A DNA stretch of 64,000 nucleotides from Bacteroidota bacterium (lineage in GTDB: Bacteria > Bacteroidota > Bacteroidia > Flavobacteriales_D > Crocinitomicaceae): assembly GCA_006226425.1 (NCBI GenBank), contig SBGX01000010.1:248001-312000 (forward strand), read 5' to 3'. Position 1 is the stretch's first letter, and each line of letters opens with the position of its first letter. Positions 24,259 to 60,614 of this stretch are shown here, in pieces. Both the position numbers and the translations under genes were made by a program. A model generated the notes under the pieces. It had not been told where the DNA came from. It worked only from the letters and a program-made list of their open reading frames with translations, and did not search any database.

Positions 24259-24282
24259 TTTTCAGGCGTTATCTCCTGAAAA
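24259..24282. terminator. Shared terminator-like hairpin between convergent genes
   Basis: TTTTCAGG (24259-24266) and CCTGAAAA (24275-24282) form a perfect eight-pair stem with an eight-base loop. The stop codon of the - strand SUFU gene lies in the loop. On the - strand a T-rich stretch follows the stem, so it probably terminates the SUFU operon; the + strand tail is less convincing. Confidence 0.55.
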
Positions 24283-24889
24283 CCCGCCACTTGGAACGAA
24301 GTACTGTCCCTCGAAAATCATCCAGGAGTTCCGTCACCCCCTGACGTTCCAGTCGCTGTAACAATTTGTAGGTTCCTTTCCCGATTTTATAATCGAATTC
24401 ATCATCAAAAATGGGAAGAATCGCCAGAAAATGGACCTTACGATCTCCCAATTCCAGAGAAGTTAGTTCTTCTTGCATGAAGCTCGGATCACAGAGAAAG
24501 AAATAACGTTGCTTCATTCCTTCGGATAATTCTACTGGTGGATTTCCTGCCGGAATAGTGTGTCCTGTTCCATACCAGGTCTCTTTTTCGATGACATGAA
24601 GGACCAGCTTTTGTATCCAGTCCATTACCCAATTCATTCGCGGATTTTCCACATCGTCTAAATCCCAATAGGCCGGCAGGCAAAAATAAAGCTCCACATG
24701 CTCCCTGCCTTCATGCTTGGGAAGCACAGGCATTTTATAATTGGATAAGCCACAGGTCATCAGCAACTCTACCTTTGAACGTTTCTGTACCGGAATTCTC
24801 AGTAGTTCTACCGGCCCGACTGATGTAGAAAGTTCTTTCACCACCTGAACTGCCCCCAAACGGGCTGTGATCGCTTCTTTTAGATTCAT
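24269..24889 (-). CDS. Suppressor-of-fused (SUFU) domain protein
   Basis: About 206 residues with a single SUFU-type domain, recognised by ELYFCLPAYWDL, the central WIQKLVLHVIEKETWYGTGHTIPAGNP block and FLAILPIFDDEFDYK. In bacteria, SUFU-domain proteins are frequent as immunity proteins of polymorphic toxin systems and as stand-alone proteins of unknown role. The ATG at 24889 overlaps the upstream DUF6495 gene by four bases (ATGA); an in-frame start at 24919 would lie well within that gene. It is the last gene of the LysE-MORN-DUF6495-SUFU operon. No toxin gene is adjacent, so an immunity role is only a possibility. Confidence 0.85.
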   Translation of the reverse strand: MNLKEAITARLGAVQVVKELSTSVGPVELLRIPVQKRSKVELLMTCGLSNYKMPVLPKHEGREHVELYFCLPAYWDLDDVENPRMNWVMDWIQKLVLHVIEKETWYGTGHTIPAGNPPVELSEGMKQRYFFLCDPSFMQEELTSLELGDRKVHFLAILPIFDDEFDYKIGKGTYKLLQRLERQGVTELLDDFRGTVLRSKWRVFRR

Positions 24890-25368
24890 GCTGTCATGGC
24901 TTTTTCCAGGGAGGACCAAAATTCGACGGAGGAAGGTACTGCCCCCTGCTCCAGTAGCTGATGCAATTCTATTTCCCGTTGATCGTGGTATGTTTTGCTT
25001 GTCTTAAAATAACTGACATCTTCCGGCCTGTTTGTCAGCGTTTCGTGAATCGATTCCGGATTCGACAAACTGGATTGCTCGTGATGTGTCTCTTTGAGTT
25101 GCAAGGCAATTAAATACATCTGATCGGCCATGAGGCGAAATACAAAGCAGCCATCATCTGTTCGCTTTTCCAAATACTCGATCTTTTCATAGACTTGCTG
25201 TAGTACCTGATCACTGAACATCCCGACCAGGGCGAGTGCTTTCTCGGGGTCCTCCTGATTGATCCTTTCCCACTCTTCTCCCTGCACTCCGTTAACAATC
25301 AAAAATTGTTTGAGTTCCTCCTCAAAATGACTGAGTTCTTCGTCTGATAAAAACCGAAATCGGGGCAT
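24886..25368 (-). CDS. DUF6495 family protein
   Basis: A 160-residue soluble protein. The start (MPRFRFLSDEELSHFEEEL, then QFLIVNGVQGEEWERIN and EKALALVGMFSDQV) matches what I recall of the Bacteroidota-specific DUF6495 family. No catalytic motif is evident and the function is unknown. It begins six bases after the MORN-repeat gene and its stop overlaps the SUFU start, so it belongs to the same operon. Confidence 0.7.
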   Translation of the reverse strand: MPRFRFLSDEELSHFEEELKQFLIVNGVQGEEWERINQEDPEKALALVGMFSDQVLQQVYEKIEYLEKRTDDGCFVFRLMADQMYLIALQLKETHHEQSSLSNPESIHETLTNRPEDVSYFKTSKTYHDQREIELHQLLEQGAVPSSVEFWSSLEKAMTA

Positions 25369-37837: not shown

Positions 37838-39388
37838 CTAATTCATTTTCAAAAACTGAACACTTTCGTTTCCTGATTTCTTCTGAATAATTACCCGATA
37901 GGTTCCCCGAGGTAATTTCTTTGTTTCAAAGGGTATATGATGTTCATCCAGATCCAGGTTTCCGTCGTAAATCACTCCGCAAGATCTTCCTGAGATATCT
38001 ACGATTTCTGCCTTCACCCATTCTCCTTTGCTGATTACTTTCAGTGTGGCGTGTTTTACACATGGATTCGGATAGACCAGTGATTCCACATCCAGTTTGG
38101 AAAGATCACTTATTCCCAAATTACAAGCTTGCATTAGTGGCATAAAGCTCACCTGATGATCAAACAACTGTTGAACTTCCGCCTCGCTCACTTCAAACCA
38201 ATCTTTTAGCAGAGAGGCATAAACATCACGGAAATCGATCTGCAATGGAATTCCGGCCTGCTCCTGAATCGCTGGTTGAATCACTGGATTTGGGCCAATA
38301 ATTGTATTGCTCAAACAAGAACCAAACAAGAACAGTGGTGCTGCGTCTCCGTGGTCAGTTCCATCACTGGCATTCGAGGCAATCTGTCTTCCAAACTCAG
38401 AAAAGGTCATTCCGGCTACTCGTTTCTCAATTCCCAACAATTGCAAATCTTCCTGAAATGCCTCCACGGCATTGGATAATCTTCGAAGTAAATCCGCATG
38501 GGCACCTTGTGTCGTATCTGTCTTCACTACCTGCTCCGAATGCGTATCAAATCCATTCAGATTCAGGATGTATATTTTTGTTTTTAGTCCTCCCGAGATC
38601 ATCTGCGCCACGGATTTTAATTGCATGGCCAGTCGATTCTCAGGATCATATAGTTGCGACATGGAATTTCCGGCATTGGCCGCCGCATTCACCTGCTGAC
38701 CGTAAGCATTGGTCTGCGCAATGATTGTACTAAGGTATTCCATGTGACTACCGTAGTAGGTTCCATCGTTGATCGACGAAAAGTCTCCCACGTTCACATC
38801 CTGAAAGGGATCGGTTACTGTATGTGAAAAGTTCCCCAACAAGCCCTGACACGTAGAAGATACCTCATAGCCCATGCTGATTGCAAAGGGATCCGGATAA
38901 TCTTCATTCGGATAGTCACTTGGGAAGTTCGGATACTTGGTATCCAAATGACGTCCCAACCATCCGGTGGTTGCATCTTCATCCTGAGTTCCGTAGGACC
39001 AAATATCCATGGATCGGAAGTGGGAACGGTTTTGTTCTGGATAACCTACATTTTGTACGATTGCCAGATTTCCATTGTTAAACATACTCGCCATTCCGGT
39101 CATGGCTGCATGGAATCCATTTTCTGCCGTTACCGGAATAATCGTGTTCTCCGGTAAGAGCACATGTGGGCGCTGGATGACCAAATTATCATACTGATCA
39201 ATCGGGATCAAGGTATTTAACCCGTCATTCCCTCCATTCAGACGAATAACAACCAACACCCGATCTTCTGCTCCTCTCGAATATTCAAACAATTTCTTTG
39301 AAATCGCGCTGTACTGATGATTCCTGAATAGAAATGGTACGGCAGCGGAGGACAGTGATACGTTCTTTATAAACTTTCTTCTTTTCAT
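37838..39388 (-). CDS. DUF1501 protein with Tat-like signal and type A T9SS sorting domain (copy 1)
   Basis: A 516-residue exported protein. The N-terminus KRRKFIKNVSLSSAAVPFLF fits the Tat pattern RR-x-F-[IL]-K. The DUF1501 body has VIRLNGGNDGLNTLIP, QNRSHFRSMDIWS, NLNGFDTHS and DGTDHGDAAPLFLFG; the domain belongs to the alkaline-phosphatase/sulfatase-like superfamily, with unknown substrate. The last ~75 residues (VYPNPC ... LPRGTYRVII ... LKMN) form a type A T9SS sorting domain. It starts eight bases after its DUF1800 partner and is the last gene of the tandem array. It is clearly related along its length to copy 2. Confidence 0.9.
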   Translation of the reverse strand: MKRRKFIKNVSLSSAAVPFLFRNHQYSAISKKLFEYSRGAEDRVLVVIRLNGGNDGLNTLIPIDQYDNLVIQRPHVLLPENTIIPVTAENGFHAAMTGMASMFNNGNLAIVQNVGYPEQNRSHFRSMDIWSYGTQDEDATTGWLGRHLDTKYPNFPSDYPNEDYPDPFAISMGYEVSSTCQGLLGNFSHTVTDPFQDVNVGDFSSINDGTYYGSHMEYLSTIIAQTNAYGQQVNAAANAGNSMSQLYDPENRLAMQLKSVAQMISGGLKTKIYILNLNGFDTHSEQVVKTDTTQGAHADLLRRLSNAVEAFQEDLQLLGIEKRVAGMTFSEFGRQIASNASDGTDHGDAAPLFLFGSCLSNTIIGPNPVIQPAIQEQAGIPLQIDFRDVYASLLKDWFEVSEAEVQQLFDHQVSFMPLMQACNLGISDLSKLDVESLVYPNPCVKHATLKVISKGEWVKAEIVDISGRSCGVIYDGNLDLDEHHIPFETKKLPRGTYRVIIQKKSGNESVQFLKMN

Positions 39389-39396
39389 AGTTCCTC

Positions 39397-41016
39397 TTAA
39401 ATTGTTTGAAATTCGGGTAACTTAAACATCTGATCCAACACCAGTGCGATACGCAATTTAATCGCATCCGCTGTCGCCTGATCGCTCGGATTGGCCTGAT
39501 ACTCATTGTACTGTAAAGTCCATTCAAAATCCGGCAGTCCATTCAGCAAAATCGCTTTCAGTGTATCCTTCTGAAGTTGAGGCAATCCTTTGGGACAAAA
39601 TAAAGTCACCATATCGGCTATGACCTGATTAGGGTCTCCCGGGACGGAAAGGGAATCCAAAAAGCCCAGGTGATTGACTTCAAACCTGTTTCCATTGACA
39701 TTAATTCCTCCATACAGGGTCACATAGCTTGCCATATCAAAACGGAGTTTGATATAACTTGAGTTGACCCAGGATTTCGAATAGTTCGGAGCCTGATAAT
39801 AGGCCGACCATCCACCAACGCTTGGCGGCGCCAGATAACCCATTCCCAATGCCTCCGATACGTAATACATTTCCAGATACATCTGATAATTTACATCCAA
39901 ATCAAAATTTGGTGCCGATCCTGTTGAGTTCAAAATCGAGAAAATATACTCCAATGGACTCTTAATGATTGCTCCACGCACGCTCAGATCATAAAAATGT
40001 TGACTTTTCAGAAGTGCTTCAACGACCGGCTGAACTTCATAATCATTCGCGATCATTAAGGTCGCCATCTCACCAATGACCGTACTCTCCACCTGATCCG
40101 TCAAGTCGTAATTCACGAACCAACGATACAGTTTCCGACAAATGTGTCTGGCTGTTTCGGCCTGCTGAAAAATAACGTCGATATAATTAGCGTATTCATC
40201 AATTCCCGCTTCTGTCACCGTCTGCGAACCAAACTTGGCTGAAAGGGTCTTGTCTCCTGTATAATGCAACTCCGGATAATATACCGCTGAAGTGGAAGTT
40301 GCTGTACTACTTAAAAAACCTGCAATCGTCCATCCTGTCAGAATTTTTGCTCCTTCCGCAATATCCGCCTCGGTATAATTGGTATAGTCTCCCACTCCTA
40401 TTTGCGGTCCCTTTCCAATCGTGTATAACTCCAATAGCTCCCTGGCGAAGTTCTCATTCGGGCTGAACTTATTGTTCTCTGCTCCATTCAAAAACACCAG
40501 CATACAAGGATCAATGGTGATGTCTTTCATCAACTGCTTAAAGTTCCCCAACGCCTGTGTTCGCATCAAATGGAAATAAGCATAGGTTGCCCTGGGGTCT
40601 GCCGTCAACTCTGCCGCAAAATGATTCTGCCAAAACAAACTCATCTTTTCATAGATATTTGGCTGTTCCCGGTTAACTCGCTCCATCAGCCATGCCCCCA
40701 GTGAGGCATTCCGCACGTTGATTGTTTTAAATATCTCTGCCTCCGTCCCTGGATATACTGAATTCACCCAGGATTCTCCAAAATTTGCAATGGTTTCATC
40801 CGAATGATATGCCAATGGCTCTTCGAACGTCGGCGCAGTCATCAATTGGGTGATGGTCGCATCCAAACCGTTAGTTACGGCATCTTCAATCTGTTGTAAA
40901 GTCAGCCCGAACTGGGTTCTCCTTAACAAATGTGCCGCTTCGATGGAAGTCCATGGTCCCGTATAAGGAGCCAAACTATAAACTTCCGGTTCGAGAATCT
41001 CTTCTTCAGGCTTCAT
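39397..41016 (-). CDS. DUF1800 domain-containing protein (copy 1)
   Basis: A 539-residue protein of the DUF1800 family: EAAHLLRRTQFG near the N-terminus, EKMSLFWQNHFAAE, SPNENFARELLELYTIGKG and TGWTIAGF, and the C-terminal GMGYLAPPSVGGWSAYYQAPNYSKSWVNSS. DUF1800 genes are nearly always paired with DUF1501; function is unknown. No signal peptide is visible: the N-terminus is acidic (KPEEEILEPE). It might therefore leave the cytoplasm as a passenger of its DUF1501 partner, or stay inside. The DUF1501 gene begins eight bases downstream. Confidence 0.9.
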   Translation of the reverse strand: MKPEEEILEPEVYSLAPYTGPWTSIEAAHLLRRTQFGLTLQQIEDAVTNGLDATITQLMTAPTFEEPLAYHSDETIANFGESWVNSVYPGTEAEIFKTINVRNASLGAWLMERVNREQPNIYEKMSLFWQNHFAAELTADPRATYAYFHLMRTQALGNFKQLMKDITIDPCMLVFLNGAENNKFSPNENFARELLELYTIGKGPQIGVGDYTNYTEADIAEGAKILTGWTIAGFLSSTATSTSAVYYPELHYTGDKTLSAKFGSQTVTEAGIDEYANYIDVIFQQAETARHICRKLYRWFVNYDLTDQVESTVIGEMATLMIANDYEVQPVVEALLKSQHFYDLSVRGAIIKSPLEYIFSILNSTGSAPNFDLDVNYQMYLEMYYVSEALGMGYLAPPSVGGWSAYYQAPNYSKSWVNSSYIKLRFDMASYVTLYGGINVNGNRFEVNHLGFLDSLSVPGDPNQVIADMVTLFCPKGLPQLQKDTLKAILLNGLPDFEWTLQYNEYQANPSDQATADAIKLRIALVLDQMFKLPEFQTI

Positions 41017-41064
41017 ACGCTGCTGTTTTCTTTAAAGATAAATTAAATCATTTACATCCGCAAA

Positions 41065-42612
41065 CTAGTTCCGAATCAACGAAAGGCTTTCCGTCCCTGA
41101 TTTTCGCTGAATCTTGATCAGGTAGGCACCTTTTGACAGGTCTGCCGTTTTGATCGGAAGTTCATGTCTTCCGGGAGCCAATGCTCCTTCAAAAACTGTT
41201 CTTAGCAATTTTCCTCTCAGGTCATACAATCCTACCCTCATGTGATCTCCCTGTCCGGTCAGGATCAATTGTGCCTGTTCGGTACATGGATTCGGGTACA
41301 CACTGGAGCTTATATCCAACTGGTCAAAATCACTAATCCCCAAACTACACGCCTGCAAAAGCGGATAAAATGTCACCTGATGTTCGAATAAAGGCTGAGC
41401 ATCTGCTTCAGGTACCAAAAACCAATCTTTTAACACCGAAGCATAAATATCTCTGAAGTCGATCTTCATCGGCACGCCGGCCTGATCTACAAGCTGATCC
41501 GAAATTTGAGGATTTGGACCCAGAATGGCATTGGAAATACAGCTTCCGAAAAGGAACAATGGCGCTGCGTCACCGTGGTCTGTTCCATTACTGGAATTGG
41601 AAGCTATCTGCCTTCCAAATTCGGACAGTGTCATTCCAGCTACCCGATGATCTATTCCCAGCAATTTCAAGTCATCCTGGAATGCATGAATGGCATCCGA
41701 AAGTTTTTTGAGCAGGGATGCGTGTGCACCAACTGTTTTATCATTCGTGTCAATTTGCGCTGCATGTGTATCAAATCCATCCAAATTCAGGACGTACACC
41801 TTGGTCGTTAATCCCCCAGAGATCATCTGGGCAACATAGCGGAGGTAAACAGCAATCTGATTGTTTGGATCATAGGCCTGCGAAAGGGTATTTCCTTTTT
41901 CTGCTGCTGCTTTTACCCGAATCCCATAGGAATTTGTTTGTGAAACTACGGTGCTCATGTAGTGTAGGTGACTACCGTAGAGAGTTCCGTCATCTGCCTG
42001 ACTATAGTCTCCCAATTGGACATCATCAAAGGGATCGGGTACCGGATAGGAGAAATTTCCTTCTTCTCCCAGGCAGGTCGCTGAAACCTGATAGCCCATA
42101 CTTATCACAAATGGATCTGGATTGTCTGTGTCCGGATACGCATCAGGAAAGCCCGGATATAATCCGTCATAGCGTCTCCCAAGCCAACCACTGGTCACGT
42201 TCAAATCGGTAGACCCGGTGGACCAAATATCTTTCGACCGGAAATGCGATCTGTTTTGGTTATCATAACCAACGTTCTGGATCACTGAAAGCGTTCCATC
42301 GTTGAACATGGAGGCCATCCCCCCCATGACTGAGTGCATTCCGTTTGTATCGTTTAATTTAATGATCGATTCCATCGGTTGGATCACATTCTCGCGCTGC
42401 TTGACCAGATTGTCATACTGATCCAAGGGAATAAAGGTGTTCAGTCCATCATTTCCCCCATTCAGGCGTATAATTACCAATACGCGGTCTTCTGCTCCTC
42501 TGGAGTACTCAAACAACTTTTCTGAGATGGCCTGAAACTTCACGTTTTTGAACATGAAGGGTACCGCCACGGAGGAAAGGGACACATTTTTTACAAAAGA
42601 TCTTCTTTTCAT
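41065..42612 (-). CDS. DUF1501 protein with Tat-like signal and type A T9SS sorting domain (copy 2)
   Basis: About 515 residues from the ATG at 42612 (MKRRSFVKNVSLSS), matching copy 1; an ATG at 42624 overlapping the upstream stop (TAATG) adds four residues and is an equally possible start. The twin-Arg motif RRSFVK, the DUF1501 core (IIRLNGGNDGLNTFIP, NLDGFDTHA, TDHGDAAPLFLFG) and a C-terminal type A T9SS domain (VYPNPC ... LSKGAYLIKI) are all present. It forms a translationally linked pair with the upstream DUF1800 gene. Roughly two-thirds of aligned residues look the same as copy 1 by eye. Confidence 0.9.
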   Translation of the reverse strand: MKRRSFVKNVSLSSVAVPFMFKNVKFQAISEKLFEYSRGAEDRVLVIIRLNGGNDGLNTFIPLDQYDNLVKQRENVIQPMESIIKLNDTNGMHSVMGGMASMFNDGTLSVIQNVGYDNQNRSHFRSKDIWSTGSTDLNVTSGWLGRRYDGLYPGFPDAYPDTDNPDPFVISMGYQVSATCLGEEGNFSYPVPDPFDDVQLGDYSQADDGTLYGSHLHYMSTVVSQTNSYGIRVKAAAEKGNTLSQAYDPNNQIAVYLRYVAQMISGGLTTKVYVLNLDGFDTHAAQIDTNDKTVGAHASLLKKLSDAIHAFQDDLKLLGIDHRVAGMTLSEFGRQIASNSSNGTDHGDAAPLFLFGSCISNAILGPNPQISDQLVDQAGVPMKIDFRDIYASVLKDWFLVPEADAQPLFEHQVTFYPLLQACSLGISDFDQLDISSSVYPNPCTEQAQLILTGQGDHMRVGLYDLRGKLLRTVFEGALAPGRHELPIKTADLSKGAYLIKIQRKSGTESLSLIRN

Positions 42613-42623
42613 CTTCAATTTCA

Positions 42624-44243
42624 TTAATTTGTTTGAAACTCCAGCAACAAGAATACCTGTTCCAGTACATTGGCCATTCGTTGCCGAATCGGTTCGCTCA
42701 ATGTTGTATTCTGAGGATCTACTTTGTAATCCGCGTATTGTTGCGTCCATTCAAATTCCGGAAGGGAATCGAGCATCATCATTTTCAATGCATCCTTTTG
42801 CGCCTGCTCGAGTCCATTCGGACAAAACACCATGACGATGTCTTCAATGACCTGATTGGCATCCTGTGGAACTGACAGACCATCCAGGAAACTGAGAAAA
42901 TCGAGCTTAAATGCTTTTCCTCCGACTTCCACCCCATTAAATACGGTCATGATACTTGCGAGGGCTATTCGCAATTTCATATAACTGGAGTTGACCCAGT
43001 TTTTTGAATAAATCGGTGCCTGATAATATGCTGTCCATCCACCAACATTCGGTGGTTGAGCATATTCCATCCCCAGGGAGTCTCCAAAGATAAATAGCTC
43101 TTTATAGATTCCATAAGTTGTTGCCAGATCAAAGCTTGGTGTTGATTTCGTACTGTTGATCATTCCGAAGATGAATTCAAGCGGATTTTTGATGATCGCC
43201 CCTCGATGCACCGTCTCATAAAAATGAGCACTCTTCAGCAGCGCTTCCAATACGGGTTTAACTTCGTAATCGGATGAGATCATCAAGGTGGCCATTTCTT
43301 CAATGACATTGCTTTCAACGTCAGTAGAAATCTCGGATGAAACAAACCAGCGATACAGCTTTCGGCAAATGAAGCGCGCTGTTTCTTTATTGGCCAGGAT
43401 CAAATCAATGTATGTTTTGTACTCCTGGTCCTGACCATCACTGATCACCTGATTTCCAAAACGGAAAGAAAGTGTTTTATCTCCCGTATCATGATGCCAC
43501 GGTTCAAAGAATGAGGTCACTTTGGTTGCAGTAGAGCTTCGAACTCCTTCGACCCTCCAACCGGTCAGGATTCTTGAGCCTGACGAAATATCAAATTCCG
43601 TATAATTCGTGTAATCTCCGTTCCCGACATGATTCCCCTTTCCTATGGTGAACAATTCCAATAGCTCCCGGGCATAATTCTCATTCGGACTAAATCGCGA
43701 ATTCTCATCTCCATTCAAAAAGATGAGCATATTCGGATTCACGGTCATTTCCTTGACGAAGGTGGCAAAGTTTCCGAGCGCATGGTTCTGGATCAATCGG
43801 AAATAATCATAAGTGGCACGCGCATCTAAACAGGGTTCTGCCGCAAAGTGATTCTGCCAGAACAGGCACATCTTTTCCTGCAAACTAAATGCCTGCCCGT
43901 TCAAACGTTCCATCGTCCAGGCCTCCAACGATCTTCTTCGGGTTTTCTCGGTGTTGAAACTTGCGGTAGAATCTGAAGGATAAACACTGTTCACCCAGGT
44001 GGTCCCATAAGCGGCTATCGGTTCATCCGCTTCATAAGTTCTTGGAAATGTAAAAGTGGGGATGGTCTCGAGCAGTTGAGTAATCGTGGCATCTAATCCC
44101 TGGTCTGCAGCAGTTTTGATTTGATCATAACTTGGACCAAAAAGGCTGCGTCTTAGCAAGTGTGCAGCTTCCTCCACTGTCCAGGCCCCGGAATAAGGTT
44201 CCATGGCCGAGGAAGAGACGAGCACATCTTCTTCTGGTTTCAT
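42624..44243 (-). CDS. DUF1800 domain-containing protein (copy 2)
   Basis: A 539-residue DUF1800 protein, the same length as copy 1, with EAAHLLRRSLFG, EKMCLFWQNHFAAE, SPNENYARELLELFTIGKG, TGWRVEGV and MEYAQPPNVGGWTAYYQAP. As in copy 1 the N-terminus (KPEEDVLVSSS) is not a signal peptide. It is the first gene of the four-gene array and has a near-consensus promoter upstream. Its stop overlaps the start region of the DUF1501 partner. Confidence 0.9.
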   Translation of the reverse strand: MKPEEDVLVSSSAMEPYSGAWTVEEAAHLLRRSLFGPSYDQIKTAADQGLDATITQLLETIPTFTFPRTYEADEPIAAYGTTWVNSVYPSDSTASFNTEKTRRRSLEAWTMERLNGQAFSLQEKMCLFWQNHFAAEPCLDARATYDYFRLIQNHALGNFATFVKEMTVNPNMLIFLNGDENSRFSPNENYARELLELFTIGKGNHVGNGDYTNYTEFDISSGSRILTGWRVEGVRSSTATKVTSFFEPWHHDTGDKTLSFRFGNQVISDGQDQEYKTYIDLILANKETARFICRKLYRWFVSSEISTDVESNVIEEMATLMISSDYEVKPVLEALLKSAHFYETVHRGAIIKNPLEFIFGMINSTKSTPSFDLATTYGIYKELFIFGDSLGMEYAQPPNVGGWTAYYQAPIYSKNWVNSSYMKLRIALASIMTVFNGVEVGGKAFKLDFLSFLDGLSVPQDANQVIEDIVMVFCPNGLEQAQKDALKMMMLDSLPEFEWTQQYADYKVDPQNTTLSEPIRQRMANVLEQVFLLLEFQTN

Positions 44244-44372: not shown

Positions 44373-45881
44373 TTACTCTTTCACAAAAGATGTTCTGGAA
44401 ACACTTCCATCCTGAAGTTTCACTTCCAACAGGTACATTCCTGCTGTCATAGAAGGAACAGTCAATGTATTTCCTCCGTTTACTTCAAGTGCAGCAACTT
44501 GCTTACCTTCCAACGTCAATACTTTTGCAGACACCAGGGAAGAGTTAGCCAATTCTACATGAATTTGATCTTTTACCGGGTTTGGATAAATCTTTGTAAT
44601 CAAAGAAATCTCTTCCAAACCTACCACACTGTTAAATGTTACTGTAGCAGTATCACAAGCGTTATCTGAGTCACACAACTGGTAATCCAGCGTCAAAACA
44701 CCAAAATAATCAGTAGCTGGAGTACAAGTCAAAATTCCCAATGAAGCATTGTATGACCATGTTCCATTTACATCAGCATACGTTGTTTGAATACCAGCTG
44801 TAGCCAGATCAATATCAACTGTGTGCGAAGAAGCTGTTACCGTTTCATCTGCATCCGTATCGTTTGCCAAAATAGATACTGAGCCTGAGTTTCCGTCAAC
44901 CAACTCACCTCCGTCATCATCATTTGCTACCGGTGCATTGTTCGTCTGAACTGCGTTTACAGTGATCGTAACGGTTGCCTCAGCACATTCCTGTGGTGTA
45001 CCATCGTCACATACACGGTAAGTGTAAGTGTCTGTTCCTGTAAATCCAGCAGATGGAGTATAAGTAATTGCTCCTGTAACGGCATCTACAGATGTTGTTC
45101 CGTTGGATGGTTGAGCAGTTACCTGTACCGTACTAGGAACCAGATTTCCATCTGAATCTGAATCGTTTGCCAATACGTTTGTTGTAACAGGTGTATCCTG
45201 ATCTGTGGCATCTGTATCATCTACTGCCGTAGGCGCTACATTTGCTACTACTTTGGAAACGTTCAATTCCATGTACATGTTCAAGTCAAAACTAGCATGT
45301 CTAGAAACCAATGTTCTCCAAGACGCATCATTCGCTCCAAATGCTGAAATACCATAAATCCAAGTATTATCACACCCACAACCAGTTGTTCCTACGAAAG
45401 TAGCAACTACTTCTGCACTACTAGCATTTCTTCTCCATCCAACAAAAAAATCACTTGTTACAGTTACACCGGTAACTGGAGTAGTAATATCCTTTGTAAT
45501 AGACCCTCCTCCTTCATCAACAGAATTCACTTCAATAGTCGTTGTGAAAATCTCATTCTCAGGCTGACCAAAGGAATTAGAAGTATAGATTACCAAATCC
45601 AATTTTCCAACTTTACCATCATTTGGCTGAGCAGTAGGCAAAAAGTATCTCCCTTTGATTGAATTGATACTCACCTCTCCATCAAGAGCTGCAAAGTCGG
45701 CATAACTGAACTTCTGCACCATCATCGAATCACCCCGAGAGTTATCCGAGTTAAAAAATCCCCCATAATTGGTATTTACATCTAATCCACTAGGGAAGGT
45801 CACGTAGGTAATGTTTTGCGCTTTTACTCCGGCGATCATCAAAAAGGCCGCAGCAAGCGATAACCAGTAATTCTTTTTCAT
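44373..45881 (-). CDS. Cadherin/Ig-like repeat protein with type A T9SS sorting domain
   Basis: A 502-residue exported protein with a signal peptide ending GVKAQ. Residues about 25-205 form a unique N-terminal domain (YGGFFNSDNSRGDSMMVQKF, RHASFDLNMYMEL) of unknown type. Two Ig/cadherin-like repeats follow, starting APTAVDDTDATDQDTP and APVANDDDGGELVDG, each with the N-D-D/LANDSDSDG calcium-site-like motif and the GxDTYTYRVCDD or LTLDYQLCDSD end. The type A T9SS domain (IYPNPVKDQIHVEL ... GMYLLEVKL) ends the protein. It starts 19 bases after the stop of the larger cargo gene, so both may be one transcript. Probable surface or secreted binding protein. Confidence 0.85.
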   Translation of the reverse strand: MKKNYWLSLAAAFLMIAGVKAQNITYVTFPSGLDVNTNYGGFFNSDNSRGDSMMVQKFSYADFAALDGEVSINSIKGRYFLPTAQPNDGKVGKLDLVIYTSNSFGQPENEIFTTTIEVNSVDEGGGSITKDITTPVTGVTVTSDFFVGWRRNASSAEVVATFVGTTGCGCDNTWIYGISAFGANDASWRTLVSRHASFDLNMYMELNVSKVVANVAPTAVDDTDATDQDTPVTTNVLANDSDSDGNLVPSTVQVTAQPSNGTTSVDAVTGAITYTPSAGFTGTDTYTYRVCDDGTPQECAEATVTITVNAVQTNNAPVANDDDGGELVDGNSGSVSILANDTDADETVTASSHTVDIDLATAGIQTTYADVNGTWSYNASLGILTCTPATDYFGVLTLDYQLCDSDNACDTATVTFNSVVGLEEISLITKIYPNPVKDQIHVELANSSLVSAKVLTLEGKQVAALEVNGGNTLTVPSMTAGMYLLEVKLQDGSVSRTSFVKE

Positions 45882-45900
45882 ACTGTGATTAAATAAAGGT

Positions 45901-47997
45901 TTAATTTTTGATTATTTTGCTTTGAACTACACCAGATTCTTTTCTCACAGTGACAAAGTACACTCCGGACTTCACCGAAGACATATCGATGTCCACTACT
46001 CGTTGACCCAATGTATTATTTTTGATCTCTTTGTTCCAAACCACACGTCCGTTCAAATCTGTCAGTTCGACCGCAAACTCTTCATTTGCCACTAATCCTC
46101 CAATTTTCACTTCTGCTTTATCCACAACCGGGTTCGGTGTTACTTCAACTCCTTTCAACGCCTTTCCAAAGGTAACAGCTCTCGTAAACGAATACGAAGC
46201 ATTTCCGTCAAAATCCACTTGCTTCAAGCGGTAATAAACCGTTCCATTGAAATTTGGTTTGTCAACGAATTCGTAATAAGATTCTTCCGAAGTTGTTCCT
46301 TTTCCATCAATTCGATGAATTGAACGGAAGTCAACTCCATCCAAAGATCTTTCTAACTCATAGAAGTCATTATTCAACTCAGACGCTGTTTGCCAATGCA
46401 AAAATGCTTCATTTCCCTGAGCGATGGCCTGAAAGTCAATTAAAGTAATCGGCACCGGAATACAACCCGTTGAAGTAATGTTAAATGAACATATCGATCC
46501 GGCAAAGCCATCAATCATGACAAAGAAGGTCTGATTTGGTGTCGGGGCCACAATCGTATAGGACTTATCTCCCAATCCTGAAGCCGTGTTTCCTCCCAAA
46601 CAACTTCCCAAGGTACATGTCCCGGAACCACACAATGGAGTCGTTCCAACACACCCAGAAATATCACCAGCCGAATAGATCAAAAACTGCAATCCAGCCG
46701 TAGAACCCTCACAGCTTGCTCCGGTCAAATCGATCGTAATATCCGTACCAGCTGCATCTGCCGTCATTTGGTAAACGGATACATTTTCATAAGAAGGTGC
46801 AGGTCCACCACCACAGTTTGGCGGTTTAAATCCTGCACACAAAGACAAACCTTGTAAAGAACTTCTGGTTGTTCCGGTGACCGTTCCTCCACAAGGTGTG
46901 GCAGCCCCTCCAATAAAGTTGTTTACATCACCAGCAAAAGAATCCCAAAAACAAGTTTCAATCGTTGCTGTATAAGGACTACTCGCTCCACTCACGACAC
47001 CCAACAAATCAACACAAACCCAAACGTAAGATCCTGGAGTCAATCCACTCCAATAACTTTGAGAACCTAGTCCATCTGCTGTTCCAATCAAATCTGTATA
47101 CAAAGTCAATGTTCCGTTTGGACCACAAACATCACCCCCACCACAGTTAGACTCATTCACCCAGGAACAGTTATCTGGTGAACTGAAACTAGCGGAAGCC
47201 GTAGCACCACTACATGTCAAATTGGTAAACAACATTGTTTTTACATAATGTCTTTCGGAACCAACCAAAGGCTGCACGTCCATTCCAACAATTCCTGTTG
47301 CCGGCACTTGTACTTTGTACCAGGTACGATACTGAGTCGTATAATGGCTACCACTCGATTTTGGCCCACAGGCAGAACCATAAACTCCAGATGAACTGAA
47401 GGAACAGGAGTTATCAATATCTGTATTCACACATTCTCCGGTAGAAGTTGGGTCAATCGCATCTGCATTGGAAATGGTATGTGCACCACCACTACAGGGT
47501 TCACATTCCGCAGGGTCCGTACTCCCCGGGCCTGAACAGGCCGGACAGGTTCCTCCACAGTCCACTCCGGTTTCCGTACCATTCTGGATTCCATCCGAAC
47601 AGGTAGGACAGGCTGCTGTTGTAAAACTACCTGTTACTCCTCCTCCCGACTGAAAACATCCTCCAGAAGAGCTATTATAATTGCGAATTCGATAATAGTA
47701 AGTTGTGGCACAGGCAAAACCGGTGATCACCTGAGACCCATTACCATGCGCAGGCAAGGAAGTCCCAACCGATGTTGTTAAAGCGGCGTTTGAATACAAC
47801 TGGATATATGTATTTGTTGCATTTGAAGCTCCAGTTGCCCAATTAAATGTCACAGCCGCATCGGTAATTCCAGTAGTAGAGACTCCCGACACTCCAGCGG
47901 GGGCAGTACATCCACCTGCTAATGCATTTGATGAGGCAAATACAAAACCAATTACCATTAAAGGGGCAATCAGCTTTTGAAGTAGTCTTTTTTTCAT
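45901..47997 (-). CDS. T9SS type A cargo protein with fibronectin III-like domain (paralog 1)
   Basis: About 698 residues from the ATG at 47997, with a signal peptide ending NALA; an upstream in-frame ATG at 48030 would sit inside the leader hairpin. A fibronectin III-like domain (about 30-125, APAGVSGVSTTG to TTYYYRIRNYNSSSGG) is followed by a Cys-rich linker (GIQNGTETGVDCGGTCPACSG). A ~340-residue core of unknown fold comes next (ECEPC, SSPDNCSWVNESNCGGGDVCG, GASCEGSTAG, FFVMIDGFAGSICSFNI), then a QTASELNNDFYELERS-type region and the type A T9SS domain (VTPNPVVDKAEV ... GVYFVTV). The core is nearly identical in protein to the neighbour at 48269. Secreted or surface-bound; function unknown. 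Confidence 0.85.
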   Translation of the reverse strand: MKKRLLQKLIAPLMVIGFVFASSNALAGGCTAPAGVSGVSTTGITDAAVTFNWATGASNATNTYIQLYSNAALTTSVGTSLPAHGNGSQVITGFACATTYYYRIRNYNSSSGGCFQSGGGVTGSFTTAACPTCSDGIQNGTETGVDCGGTCPACSGPGSTDPAECEPCSGGAHTISNADAIDPTSTGECVNTDIDNSCSFSSSGVYGSACGPKSSGSHYTTQYRTWYKVQVPATGIVGMDVQPLVGSERHYVKTMLFTNLTCSGATASASFSSPDNCSWVNESNCGGGDVCGPNGTLTLYTDLIGTADGLGSQSYWSGLTPGSYVWVCVDLLGVVSGASSPYTATIETCFWDSFAGDVNNFIGGAATPCGGTVTGTTRSSLQGLSLCAGFKPPNCGGGPAPSYENVSVYQMTADAAGTDITIDLTGASCEGSTAGLQFLIYSAGDISGCVGTTPLCGSGTCTLGSCLGGNTASGLGDKSYTIVAPTPNQTFFVMIDGFAGSICSFNITSTGCIPVPITLIDFQAIAQGNEAFLHWQTASELNNDFYELERSLDGVDFRSIHRIDGKGTTSEESYYEFVDKPNFNGTVYYRLKQVDFDGNASYSFTRAVTFGKALKGVEVTPNPVVDKAEVKIGGLVANEEFAVELTDLNGRVVWNKEIKNNTLGQRVVDIDMSSVKSGVYFVTVRKESGVVQSKIIKN

Positions 47998-48019
47998 GAT
48001 CCTTTTCAGTTTTAAGTAG

Positions 48020-48046
48020 CCCATAGTCAAAATTATCGACTATGGG
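48020..48046 (-). promoter_or_regulatory. Leader hairpin at the predicted 5' end of the paralog 1 transcript
   Basis: CCCATAGTC and GACTATGGG are perfect nine-base arms around a nine-base loop. The hairpin begins about six bases after the -7 box, i.e. at or next to the predicted first transcribed base, and lies 22 bases upstream of the start codon. It lacks a T run, so it is not a terminator. It could stabilise the mRNA 5' end, or be a protein-binding operator. Confidence 0.6.
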
Positions 48047-48052
48047 ACGACA

Positions 48053-48083
48053 CAAATATACGACCATTTTTCCATTCAAACAA
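48053..48083 (-). promoter_or_regulatory. Promoter for T9SS cargo paralog 1
   Basis: On the - strand TTG (48081-48083), a 20-base spacer and TATATTTG (48053-48060), an exact TAnnTTTG match. Confidence 0.65.
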
Positions 48084-48205
48084 TTTTTTGTTAATAAATT
48101 GTTTTCCAGAAAAACACTCCTATTCGCTCTAACTGACCGGATTTAATTCCTTGAAACGTAGCCCTTTTAAGGGTTTTGCTAGATTGTTTTCGAGGCAAGA
48201 GGCAT

Positions 48206-48246
48206 CAAAAATCCCCGTCAAGTGATTTCCTTCAACGGGGATTTTG
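48206..48246 (-). terminator. Terminator after T9SS cargo paralog 2
   Basis: CAAAAATCCCCGT / ACGGGGATTTTG pair over about twelve bases with a 16-base loop, 22 bases past the stop of the - strand gene; A/T pairs at the base supply the T run. Confidence 0.8.
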
Positions 48247-48268
48247 TTAATTTATTTTTGAATACAAA

Positions 48269-50338
48269 TTATTCTTTGATGATTTTCGTCTGAACTGTCC
48301 CTGATAATTTCTTCGCAGCAACATAATACATTCCTGATCGGAATTCTGCCAGATTCAACTCAAGCACCTGATGGGACAATTGGTTGTCCTCAATCGTTTC
48401 GGTCAACATCACTCTTCCGTTCAGGTCGAATACTTCAATCGTAATGTCTTCTCCAATCTTCAAATCAGACAATTTTACTTCACATCTTTCTTTGACTGGG
48501 TTAGGCGTCACTTCCATTGGTACTTCTTTCCCTCCACCGAAGTTCACTGCCTGCACCATCGAGTGCGACTCGTTTCCATCAAAGTCCACCTGTTTCAAAC
48601 GGTAGTAGACCGTTCCGTTATGATTTGGTTGATCTACAAACTCGTAAGATGTTCCCTTAGAAGTAGTTCCCTGACCATCAAACTTCTGAATTGTACGGAA
48701 CTCAATCCCATCCAGCGAGCGCTCTAAGACGAAGTAGTCATTATTGATCTCCGAAGCAGTTTGCCAGTGGATAAACGCCTCATCCCCCTGTTGTACAGCA
48801 ACGAAATCCATCAGGGTAATCGGCACGGGGACACAACCTGTCGAGGTGATATTAAAAGAACAAATAGACCCAGCAAAACCGTCAATCATGACAAAGAAAG
48901 TTTGATTCGGAGTTGGGGCCACGATCGTATAGGTCTTGTCTCCCAAACCGGAAGCCGTGTTTCCCCCCAGACAACTTCCCAGAGTACATGTCCCGGAACC
49001 ACACAACGGAGTCGTTCCTGTACAACCGGAAATATCTCCAGCCGAATAGATCAGGAACTGAAGTCCTGCTGTAGAACCTTCACAGCTTGCTCCTGTCAGG
49101 TCAATTGTGATATCCGTACCCGCAGCATCAGCCGTCATCTTATAGATAGATACATTCTCATACGAAGGTGCTGGTCCCCCACCACAGTTTGGCGGCTTAA
49201 ACCCAGAACACAAAGACAAGCCTTGCAATGAACTTCTGGTCGTTCCAGTGACCGTTCCTCCACAAGGAGTTCCTGCTCCTCCGATGAAGTTATTCACATC
49301 GCCAGCAAAAGAATCCCAAAAACAAGTTTCAATTTGTGCCGTGTAAGGACTACTTGCTCCGGAAACAACCCCTAAAAGATCCACACACAACCATACATAC
49401 GAACCCGGAGTCAAACCGCTCCAATAACTTTGAGAACCTAGTCCATCTGCTGTTCCAATTAAATCTGTATAAAGTGTCAGCGTTCCGTTTGGACCACAGA
49501 CATCACCACCTCCACAGTTGGATTCATTGACCCAGGAACAATTATCTGGCGAACTAAAGCTCGCTGAAGCCGTGGAACCACTACAAGTCAGATTGGTAAA
49601 CAACATGGTTTTCACATAATGTCTTTCCGACCCAACCAAAGGCTGTACGTCCATCCCTACGATTCCTGTCGCAGGCACCTGCACTTTGTACCAGGTACGA
49701 TATTGCGTCGTATAATAGCTCCCCGAAGATTTTACTGCACAAGCAGAACCATATAATCCAGAAGTACTGAACGTACATGAGTTATCAATATCAGTTGTCA
49801 CACAGGCCCCTGAAGAGGTTGGGTCAATAGCATCGGCATTTGAAATGGTGTGGGAACCACTGTTACAAGGCTCACATTCGGCCGGATCTCCCGAACCTCC
49901 GCCGCCTCCGCCGCCGCCTCCGCCGCCACCGCCTCCACCTCCGCCACAAGCGGAAGTCGTGAAGCTACCAGTAGTTGAGCCGGATTGAAAACACCCACCA
50001 GAAGAACTGTTATAGTTTCTTATACGATAATAATAGGTCGTTCCACAGGTAAACCCGGAAAGCGCAACCGAACCCGCACCATGTGAGGGCAACGAGGTTC
50101 CAAATAAGGTTGTCATTCCTGAATTGGTATAAATCTGAATATATGTATTCGTTGCATTGGAAGCACCCGTTGACCAACTAAAAGTTGCTCCGGTTTCCGA
50201 GATACTACCTGTCCCCGTTCCCGAAACAGCAGCTGGTGCAGTACACCCTCCTGCCTGGACCTCAAAAGAGACAACCAGCATTCCCATCAAAATGAGGGGA
50301 GCTACCAAGTATTTTTTAAGAAGTAATTTATTTTTCAT
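48269..50338 (-). CDS. T9SS type A cargo protein with poly-glycine linker (paralog 2)
   Basis: A 689-residue exported protein with a signal peptide ending EVQA, a fibronectin III-like domain (about 30-130), a run of 17 glycines at residues 132-148, the ~340-residue Cys-rich core shared with the neighbour, and a type A T9SS domain (VTPNPVKERCEVKL ... GMYYVAAKK). The glycine run replaces the Cys-rich linker of paralog 1 exactly at the joint between the fibronectin-like and core domains. It has its own upstream region and terminator, so it is a separate transcript. On the - strand TAAACTTTC lies near 50368-50376 but does not match the -7 consensus well. Confidence 0.85.
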   Translation of the reverse strand: MKNKLLLKKYLVAPLILMGMLVVSFEVQAGGCTAPAAVSGTGTGSISETGATFSWSTGASNATNTYIQIYTNSGMTTLFGTSLPSHGAGSVALSGFTCGTTYYYRIRNYNSSSGGCFQSGSTTGSFTTSACGGGGGGGGGGGGGGGGGSGDPAECEPCNSGSHTISNADAIDPTSSGACVTTDIDNSCTFSTSGLYGSACAVKSSGSYYTTQYRTWYKVQVPATGIVGMDVQPLVGSERHYVKTMLFTNLTCSGSTASASFSSPDNCSWVNESNCGGGDVCGPNGTLTLYTDLIGTADGLGSQSYWSGLTPGSYVWLCVDLLGVVSGASSPYTAQIETCFWDSFAGDVNNFIGGAGTPCGGTVTGTTRSSLQGLSLCSGFKPPNCGGGPAPSYENVSIYKMTADAAGTDITIDLTGASCEGSTAGLQFLIYSAGDISGCTGTTPLCGSGTCTLGSCLGGNTASGLGDKTYTIVAPTPNQTFFVMIDGFAGSICSFNITSTGCVPVPITLMDFVAVQQGDEAFIHWQTASEINNDYFVLERSLDGIEFRTIQKFDGQGTTSKGTSYEFVDQPNHNGTVYYRLKQVDFDGNESHSMVQAVNFGGGKEVPMEVTPNPVKERCEVKLSDLKIGEDITIEVFDLNGRVMLTETIEDNQLSHQVLELNLAEFRSGMYYVAAKKLSGTVQTKIIKE
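49895..49945 (-). repeat. GGN codon repeat encoding 17 consecutive glycines
   Basis: 51 bases of GGN triplets in the - strand frame, mixing GGC, GGA and GGT. As an imperfect triplet tract it may change length by slippage in steps of whole codons and so act as a variable-length flexible linker. Confidence 0.9.
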
Positions 50339-59828: not shown

Positions 59829-60614
59829 TCACGTCTGTCTCAAAGCCTTGCGCTCTACTAAGGCCACAACAAATATACTGATTTCGTACAATAATACGAT
59901 CGGGATCGCTACGATCACCTGGCTCACTAAATCCGGTGGTGTAATGATTGCTGACAAGACCAATACACCAATGATTGAATGCTTTCTGTACTTTCTTAAA
60001 AAGGCCGCTGTTATAATTCCCAGCTTGGAAAAAATGTATGACACAACCGGCAACAGAAACAGTAATCCCGAATAGAAGACCGTCGAAATGATCGTGCTCA
60101 TGTATGAGTTAATCGTAAAGATATTTTCAACCGATGTCGAAATCTGATAGGAACCGAAGAACTGCACACACAGGGGAGCTACCACAAAATAACCAAAGGT
60201 AATCCCCAGAAAAAACAGGAGACTAACGTACAATACTACTCCTTTGGCCACACTTTTCTCATTTTGTTTCAGGCCTGGTTTCACAAAGGACCAGATTTGC
60301 CAGAAAATGAAGGGAAAGGAAACGACAATACCGCCCATCACACTCATCATGAGGGCGTAGGAAAACTGCCCGGCAACTGTTGTACTCTGCATTTTTACCG
60401 GAATTTCTTCCACACAGATATTAAAGTTATCACAGAAAAACTGAAAGGTAAAGAATGATGGGTTCTTCATAGACAAAAAAACGTGATCCATGATCCATTC
60501 CTGAAAAACCCAAATGACGGTTGCAAATAGAATAATGGCTACAGCCGACCTGACCAAACGCCACCGGAGTTCCTCCAGGTGGTCTAAAAAGGACATCTCT
60601 TTCTGATCATCCAT
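59829..60614 (-). CDS. tatC: Twin-arginine translocase subunit TatC
   Basis: A 261-residue inner-membrane protein with six helices, the signal-recognising core of the Tat system for folded proteins. Typical sequence: MSFLDHLEELRWRLVRSAVA at the N-terminus (conserved LEELR), GGIVVSFPFIFWQIWSFVKPGL, and LVLSAIITPPDLVSQVIVAIPIVLLYEISIF near the C-terminus. It carries an insertion with two Cys in the first periplasmic loop (FCDNFNICVEE). The TatA partner gene is not in the window. Its likely substrates here include the DUF1501 proteins with RR motifs. Confidence 0.95.
   Translation of the reverse strand: MDDQKEMSFLDHLEELRWRLVRSAVAIILFATVIWVFQEWIMDHVFLSMKNPSFFTFQFFCDNFNICVEEIPVKMQSTTVAGQFSYALMMSVMGGIVVSFPFIFWQIWSFVKPGLKQNEKSVAKGVVLYVSLLFFLGITFGYFVVAPLCVQFFGSYQISTSVENIFTINSYMSTIISTVFYSGLLFLLPVVSYIFSKLGIITAAFLRKYRKHSIIGVLVLSAIITPPDLVSQVIVAIPIVLLYEISIFVVALVERKALRQT

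Follow-up and report, generated by a model that had tools for sequence, protein, structure and literature searches.

In a stretch of 64,000 nucleotides from a Crocinitomicaceae genome of the phylum Bacteroidota (contig SBGX01000010.1; the stretch is hereafter called the window), we found two tandem DUF1800-DUF1501 pairs, made up of four genes that all run on the minus strand at 37838-44243. Their DUF1501 products carry a twin-arginine translocation (Tat)-type signal at the N-terminus and a type IX secretion system (T9SS) sorting domain at the C-terminus, and their DUF1800 products carry no signal peptide. We infer that DUF1501 would actually use Tat to cross the inner membrane and then the T9SS to cross the outer membrane, because its twin-arginine (RR) motif is conserved, the hallmarks of a Sec signal are missing, a T9SS domain is present and both machineries are encoded in the genome. 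The signal-less DUF1800 most likely would bind DUF1501 in the cytoplasm and then ride through Tat along with it. From these sequence features we regard Tat entry and T9SS exit of DUF1501 as quite probable; the ride of DUF1800, taken overall, is close to an even call with a slight lean in its favour, and the explanation as a whole is one that we only just favour. The original prediction had proposed that a folded DUF1501-DUF1800 complex leaves by this route. Its DUF1501 part gained support from motif conservation, from the features that separate Sec from Tat signals when measured against cargo of the same genome, and from the presence of both machineries, and its DUF1800 part, compatible with the data and backed indirectly, keeps the lesser strength just given.

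Twin-arginine motif and T9SS domain of DUF1501

Both DUF1501 proteins start with KRR-x-F-[IV]-K, as originally noted: MKRRKFIKN in DUF1501a (N-terminus MKRRKFIKNVSLSSAAVPFLF) and MKRRSFVKN in DUF1501b (N-terminus MKRRSFVKNVSLSSVAVPFMF). Conservation was followed in a phylum sample, in which 154 of 395 genomes have DUF1800, and in an order sample, in which 61 of 150 do. DUF1800 neighbourhoods were taken from the best-scoring matches, 30 loci and 80 regions for the phylum and 30 loci and 20 regions for the order. They held 166 DUF1800 frames; five without a DUF1501 within 700 bases were left out, and removal of four rows that repeat the window (two from L001, one each from L002 and L144) from the remaining 161 gave 157 pairs. 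A second, organism-named set (L340-L419) consists of the best 80 of 588 matches from a contig search with alignment A2 as query; a single-protein query against the genome contigs gave no match. Taxa given in the titles of these loci include Saprospiraceae, Chitinophagaceae, Hymenobacter, Spirosoma, Lacihabitans, Polaribacter, Ignavibacteria and a Kapaibacterium. Partial sequences were left out of the alignments (L087 and L150 from A1-A3), as were L402 from A4 and L395 and L414 from A5; the members of A5 had been picked for a strict RR motif, so that RR invariance in A5 is circular and was not used.

The pattern RRx[FGAVML][LITMVF] lies within the first 70 residues of 150 of the 157 DUF1501s, the misses being six with R-K and one miscalled start. 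Among 120 aligned DUF1501s, one of them a gap row, R3 is found in 119, R4 in 113 (K in 6) and F6 in 119, position 7 holds one of L, I, V and M in 119, and G52 and D55 are present in all 120. The named set has the motif in 79 of 82 DUF1501 frames (two have R-K and one is broken by unresolved bases). All 19 readable same-family relatives have RRxF (18 MKRR, one MIKRR) together with [YF]PNP; in the twentieth region, L199, no DUF1501 could be read. Short DUF1501s that lack the T9SS tail bear the same signal. In 23 of the 150 RR-bearing DUF1501s more than 12 residues precede the RR (L122, L088, L091, L102, L115, L131 and others). An H-x(2-4)-H is present in 21 of them, in a setting close to G-x-x-H-x-x-[DE]-H-x-x-[WC]-[ST]-RR, which makes an extended histidine-rich n-region.

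The 3.4 Mb genome has five DNA sites for M[KN]RRxF[LIVM], namely the two DUF1501s, one site lacking RR and two lying away from gene starts. This rarity, and the lack of the motif in other T9SS cargo of the genome (below), indicate that its presence in the two genes exceeds chance. We read 30 of the 50 sites of the wider pattern RRxF[LIVM]K, and the plausible starts among them were the two DUF1501s and L335. This last protein looks like a molybdopterin-binding subunit, with matches under the cut-off to the QrcB model (101 bits) and to formate_TAT (17.7 bits), and from its sequence we take it to be a classical Tat substrate.

At the other end, the predicted YPNP-type T9SS type A domain was recovered by profile matches in both proteins. 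DUF1501b lies above the curated cut-offs (TIGR04183 28.3 bits against 23, PF18962 32.5 against 27), and DUF1501a lies slightly under them as a protein (21 and 24.4 bits) and above in the genome scan (23.3 bits). In a profile search the solved relatives of the DUF1501 tail were T9SS sorting domains (8glj_D, 8glk_D and mirolase 8qb1). The AlphaFold2 model of DUF1501b (predicted local distance difference test score, pLDDT, 87.4) has seven strands in residues 436-514 and low confidence at 1-6, 8-39 and 425-433; residues 1-39 are disordered in it. At E 0.1, TIGR04183 matched all 85 long DUF1501s and none of the 54 short ones, and it matched 74 of 76 in the named set, both window proteins included. 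Tail-less proteins make up 54 of the 118 complete phylum DUF1501s outside the window. A tail suggested for L191 and L192 by a loose regular expression was dismissed, since the profile finds none in the 54 short DUF1501s, which include both.

The genome encodes a T9SS (SprA, TIGR04189, 2423 bits), with 134 type A domain matches, and a Tat machinery with two TatA_B_E matches and one TatC. The tatC gene does lie in the window, as had been pointed out, and it carries little weight as an argument, since TatC is present in 391 of the 395 phylum genomes; for the same reason nothing can be learned from comparing the occurrence of DUF1501 and TatC across genomes.

The DUF1501 signal compared with T9SS cargo of the same genome

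Because the genome has so many type A T9SS matches, the other T9SS cargo that it encodes serves as an appropriate control. We hand-picked 60 frames from these matches and used 58 of them for signal measurements. An RR motif in the first 100 residues was found in none of the 60, and in none of the 18 readable frames among 30 of a further T9SS set (one shared with the 60), whilst 57 of the 60 have a hydrophobic core of at least 1.8 from their best start. Median core hydrophobicity was 1.75 in the 150 RR-bearing DUF1501s versus 2.60 in the 58 controls (Mann-Whitney p 8e-24), although control cores were taken from the highest-scoring start, which somewhat favours the controls and counts to that extent against a Tat assignment. 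A Q-rule glutamine (following a small residue, close to where cleavage is expected) was present in 29 of 150 DUF1501s versus 56 of 58 controls, and a lysine or arginine within eight residues past the core in 100 of 150 versus 14 of 58. The 26 window and order loci gave a core of 1.83, the glutamine in seven and a lysine or arginine past the core in 16. The accessible parts of two papers describe this glutamine as the Q-rule of Sec-exported Bacteroidetes proteins and do not contain the word Tat (PMC5837995, PMC10653852). A core of moderate hydrophobicity followed by positive charge sets Tat signals apart from Sec signals. The window copies have cores of 1.78 and 1.83 and lack the glutamine; with an RR motif and a low core in place of the Sec signal of T9SS type A cargo, they are, as judged from sequence, a variant, non-standard form of such cargo.

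Several observations weigh against Tat entry. At E 0.1 the curated Tat models (TIGR01409, PF10518) left both window proteins unmatched, and TAT_signal_seq matched 25 of 85 long, 19 of 54 short and 5 of 76 named-set DUF1501s, and PF10518 found nothing above cut-off in the genome. The RRxF[LIVM]K pattern is not enriched as DNA; the genome has 50 sites for it and 76 for its reverse. R-K takes the place of RR in six phylum and two named DUF1501s, a change that often damages Tat signals. Finally, both window copies have an aromatic residue at -3 relative to the conserved alanine, which makes a poor site for signal peptidase I.

The DUF1800 partner and the alternative routes

In 160 of the 161 rows the immediate upstream neighbour of DUF1501, on the same strand, is DUF1800, and the remaining one, the sole row in reverse order, is a cut copy of the window; DUF1800 is also immediately 5' of DUF1501 for 79 of the 82 DUF1501 frames of the named set. 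A natural DUF1800-DUF1501 fusion was not found among 1864 frames from 194 sources. Another type of DUF1501, which PF07394 matches over its full length, occurs in L003-L032, and in the loci scanned, L004 and L012, the gene directly upstream of it is PSD1/DUF1553, not DUF1800.

Both window DUF1800s were originally described as signal-less, and their starts, MKPEEE (a) and MKPEED (b), agree with this: no hidden signal peptide is possible because only 5 (a) and 1 (b) codons separate the upstream stop from the ATG. By our own simple rules, the starts of the 157 paired DUF1800s fell into 119 with no signal, 22 with RR and no hydrophobic core, two with RR and a core (L113, L142) and 14 that are Sec-like. 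N-terminal RR is thus found in 24 of the 157, domain-internal HLLRR being excluded. No core of at least 2.0 was found from any ATG in the 79 named-set DUF1800s, 26 of which have an RR-motif start, for example MDRRDFLTARKRKK. The RR can stand right behind the start methionine with no core (L101, L119, L075, L136, L367, L381, L386, L419 and others), and such a start, by its sequence, cannot alone be a signal peptide. The operon and the signal-less DUF1800 are family-wide traits and not particular to the window. The near-constant Tat-type signal of DUF1501 and the variable signal of DUF1800 (Sec, RR, RR remnant or none) are what would be expected if DUF1501 can carry DUF1800 as a partner, a role with which they fit and which they do not prove.

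Five residues of DUF1800a, E188, R192, E193, D218 and K256, are conserved in all 14 Sec-signalled DUF1800s and in 139, 142, 142, 141 and 140 of 142 others (one DUF1800 of fewer than 400 residues was left out of this count); E196 is Q in three of the 14. A T9SS-tailed DUF1501 partner was found for 0 of 12 Sec-like DUF1800s versus 66 of 108 others (Fisher p 3e-5, complete partners, uncorrected for relatedness). The model of DUF1800a has a pLDDT of 94.2. Sequence searches returned no solved DUF1800 relative apart from one chance-level row, and no fold match was obtained at E 0.001 (best Z 4.2), which does not establish a new fold. That DUF1800 is a relative of PSD1 was not established (hhalign probability 3.3, E 0.013, last 72 columns only).

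A signal-less DUF1800 could simply be cytoplasmic, which speaks against co-transport. Chaperone or proofreading proteins of the TorD/NarJ type offer an analogue: DUF1501 would take Tat and the T9SS, and DUF1800 would stay behind as its partner until DUF1501 has folded. The large signal-less class of DUF1800s and the coreless starts of all 79 named pairs agree with such a role, as does the synthesis of DUF1800 just ahead of DUF1501 from the same operon. The 14 DUF1800s with a Sec-like signal have the same conserved polar core, however, and therefore DUF1800 works outside the cytoplasm in those lineages; the two with an RR signal and a core also argue against cytoplasmic retention. We consider such retention unlikely, though to be taken seriously. 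A further alternative lets DUF1501 enter by Tat and keeps the complex in the periplasm, or leaves DUF1800 there when the T9SS exports DUF1501. None of 73 DUF1800s has a T9SS domain, and the tail-less DUF1501s of the phylum would stop in the periplasm together with a signal-less DUF1800, but the tail retained by every long DUF1501 indicates that at least DUF1501 is selected to leave, and we hold this outcome to be improbable.

Least probable, and in our judgement very much so, is that DUF1501 is ordinary Sec-dependent T9SS cargo whose RR is incidental or serves another purpose. The silence of the curated Tat models on the window proteins, the glutamine near the expected cleavage site in a minority of DUF1501s and the naming of Sec alone in the available parts of T9SS papers would suit it. 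It is at odds with the near-fixed RRxF, which no control frame has, with the lower core hydrophobicity and mostly missing Q-rule, and with the sharing of the signal by the tail-less short proteins. Within the preferred explanation, Tat entry and T9SS exit of DUF1501 with DUF1800 as its passenger, a bolder extension can be put forward, which we think less likely than not. The complex, once folded in the cytoplasm, might cross both membranes without ever being unfolded, DUF1501 giving both addresses, and the coreless RR start of many DUF1800s might be a relic of a Tat signal of their own or a second docking tag of the complex.

Gene layout, fold and place among known systems

The features are listed below. 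DUF1501b may start at the listed ATG 42612 (MKRRSFVKN) or as MKLKMKRR at 42624, the last base of the DUF1800b stop; a longer open reading frame to 42750 overlaps DUF1800b and is an unlikely start. Gaps of 48 bases (DUF1501b-DUF1800a) and 8 bases (DUF1800a-DUF1501a) separate the genes, and direct reading of the sequence revealed an inverted repeat with a T run upstream of DUF1800b. Three further T9SS type A proteins lie in a row upstream of the pairs (44373-50338), the nearest of which (44373-45881) has a plain Sec-like signal with a Q-rule glutamine, MKKNYWLSLAAAFLMIAGVKAQ, a contrast inside the window. Elsewhere in the window, at 24272-24919, a SUFU-domain protein adjoins a DUF6495 protein and a MORN-repeat protein.

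Features of the two DUF1800-DUF1501 pairs and tatC, with positions in the window
Feature	Position	Strand	Remarks
DUF1800b	42624..44243	-	539 aa, starts MKPEEDVLV; PF08811 286.9 bits; without signal peptide
DUF1501b	41065..42612	-	515 aa; PF07394 64.4 bits; alternative ATG 42624
DUF1800a	39397..41016	-	539 aa, starts MKPEEEILEPE; PF08811 292.2 bits; without signal peptide
DUF1501a	37838..39388	-	516 aa; PF07394 53 bits
Tat-type signal of DUF1501b	42529..42612	-	MKRRSFVKNVSLSSVAVPFMFKNVKFQA; end set at conserved Ala, putative cleavage
Tat-type signal of DUF1501a	39305..39388	-	MKRRKFIKNVSLSSAAVPFLFRNHQYSA; end set at conserved Ala, putative cleavage
T9SS type A C-terminal domain of DUF1501b	41068..41313	-	residues about 434-515, seven strands
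T9SS type A C-terminal domain of DUF1501a	37841..38089	-	residues about 434-516; bounds copied from DUF1501b
tatC	59829..60614	-	TIGR00945 164.4 bits; PF00902

The DUF1501 model matched a nucleotide pyrophosphatase (7mw8_C; Z 17.4, 246 residues, root-mean-square deviation 3.6) and PafA (Z 17.2, 274 residues), and Foldseek returned 160 matches at E 0.001, including sulfatases, YejM and LtaS. Judged by the model, DUF1501 has an alkaline-phosphatase fold, in common with nucleotide pyrophosphatases and PafA at only 12-15% identity. PhoX and PhoD use Tat because their metal is loaded in the cytoplasm. If DUF1501 also receives metal there, as may be the case, this would be a reason for its Tat route.

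The Ni-Fe hydrogenase, reportedly described by Rodrigue in 1999 (cited in PMC9251779), is said to be a Tat hitchhiker complex. Tat hitchhikers likewise consist of one signalled and one signal-less protein per operon and are folded before export; unlike them, DUF1501 also bears a T9SS sorting domain, and co-transport is here putative. DUF1501-PSD1/DUF1553 pairs of the same phylum have DUF1501 directly behind a large family protein (L004), but the partner is PSD1, not DUF1800. With T9SS type A cargo (TIGR04183/PF18962), DUF1501 shares the seven-strand C-terminal sorting domain with YPNP. Such cargo is described, in the sources as far as available, as entering by Sec, whereas DUF1501 has a Tat-type signal, mostly without the Q-rule glutamine.

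Already known, from the available text of one paper, is a twin-arginine motif, noted with PRED-TAT, on DUF1800-linked DUF1501 in other bacteria, where the two genes form one operon by bacterial chitin synthase genes (PMC5122149). The two families are the same as here, and that text mentions neither the T9SS nor a DUF1800 signal. Parts of four papers name Sec as the T9SS entry route (PMC9127263, PMC9251779, PMC10994853, PMC11285876), one of which also states that the T9SS moves folded proteins and that Tat carries complexes (PMC9251779), and an excerpt of another says that all T9SS effectors have Sec signals (PMC10202324). A literature search of the titles and abstract openings of open-licence papers found no published Tat-dependent T9SS cargo. 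What appears to be new is thus a T9SS cargo with a predicted Tat-type signal, two halves that the literature covered keeps apart.

Tat-type entry of T9SS cargo would contradict the textbook rule of Sec entry. If the proposed route is true, a widespread Tat-entering family would mean that the T9SS accepts proteins already folded in the cytoplasm, and the cell surface could come within reach of enzymes with cofactors or of complexes. DUF1501 and DUF1800, large families of no known function, would then gain a testable place in the cell.

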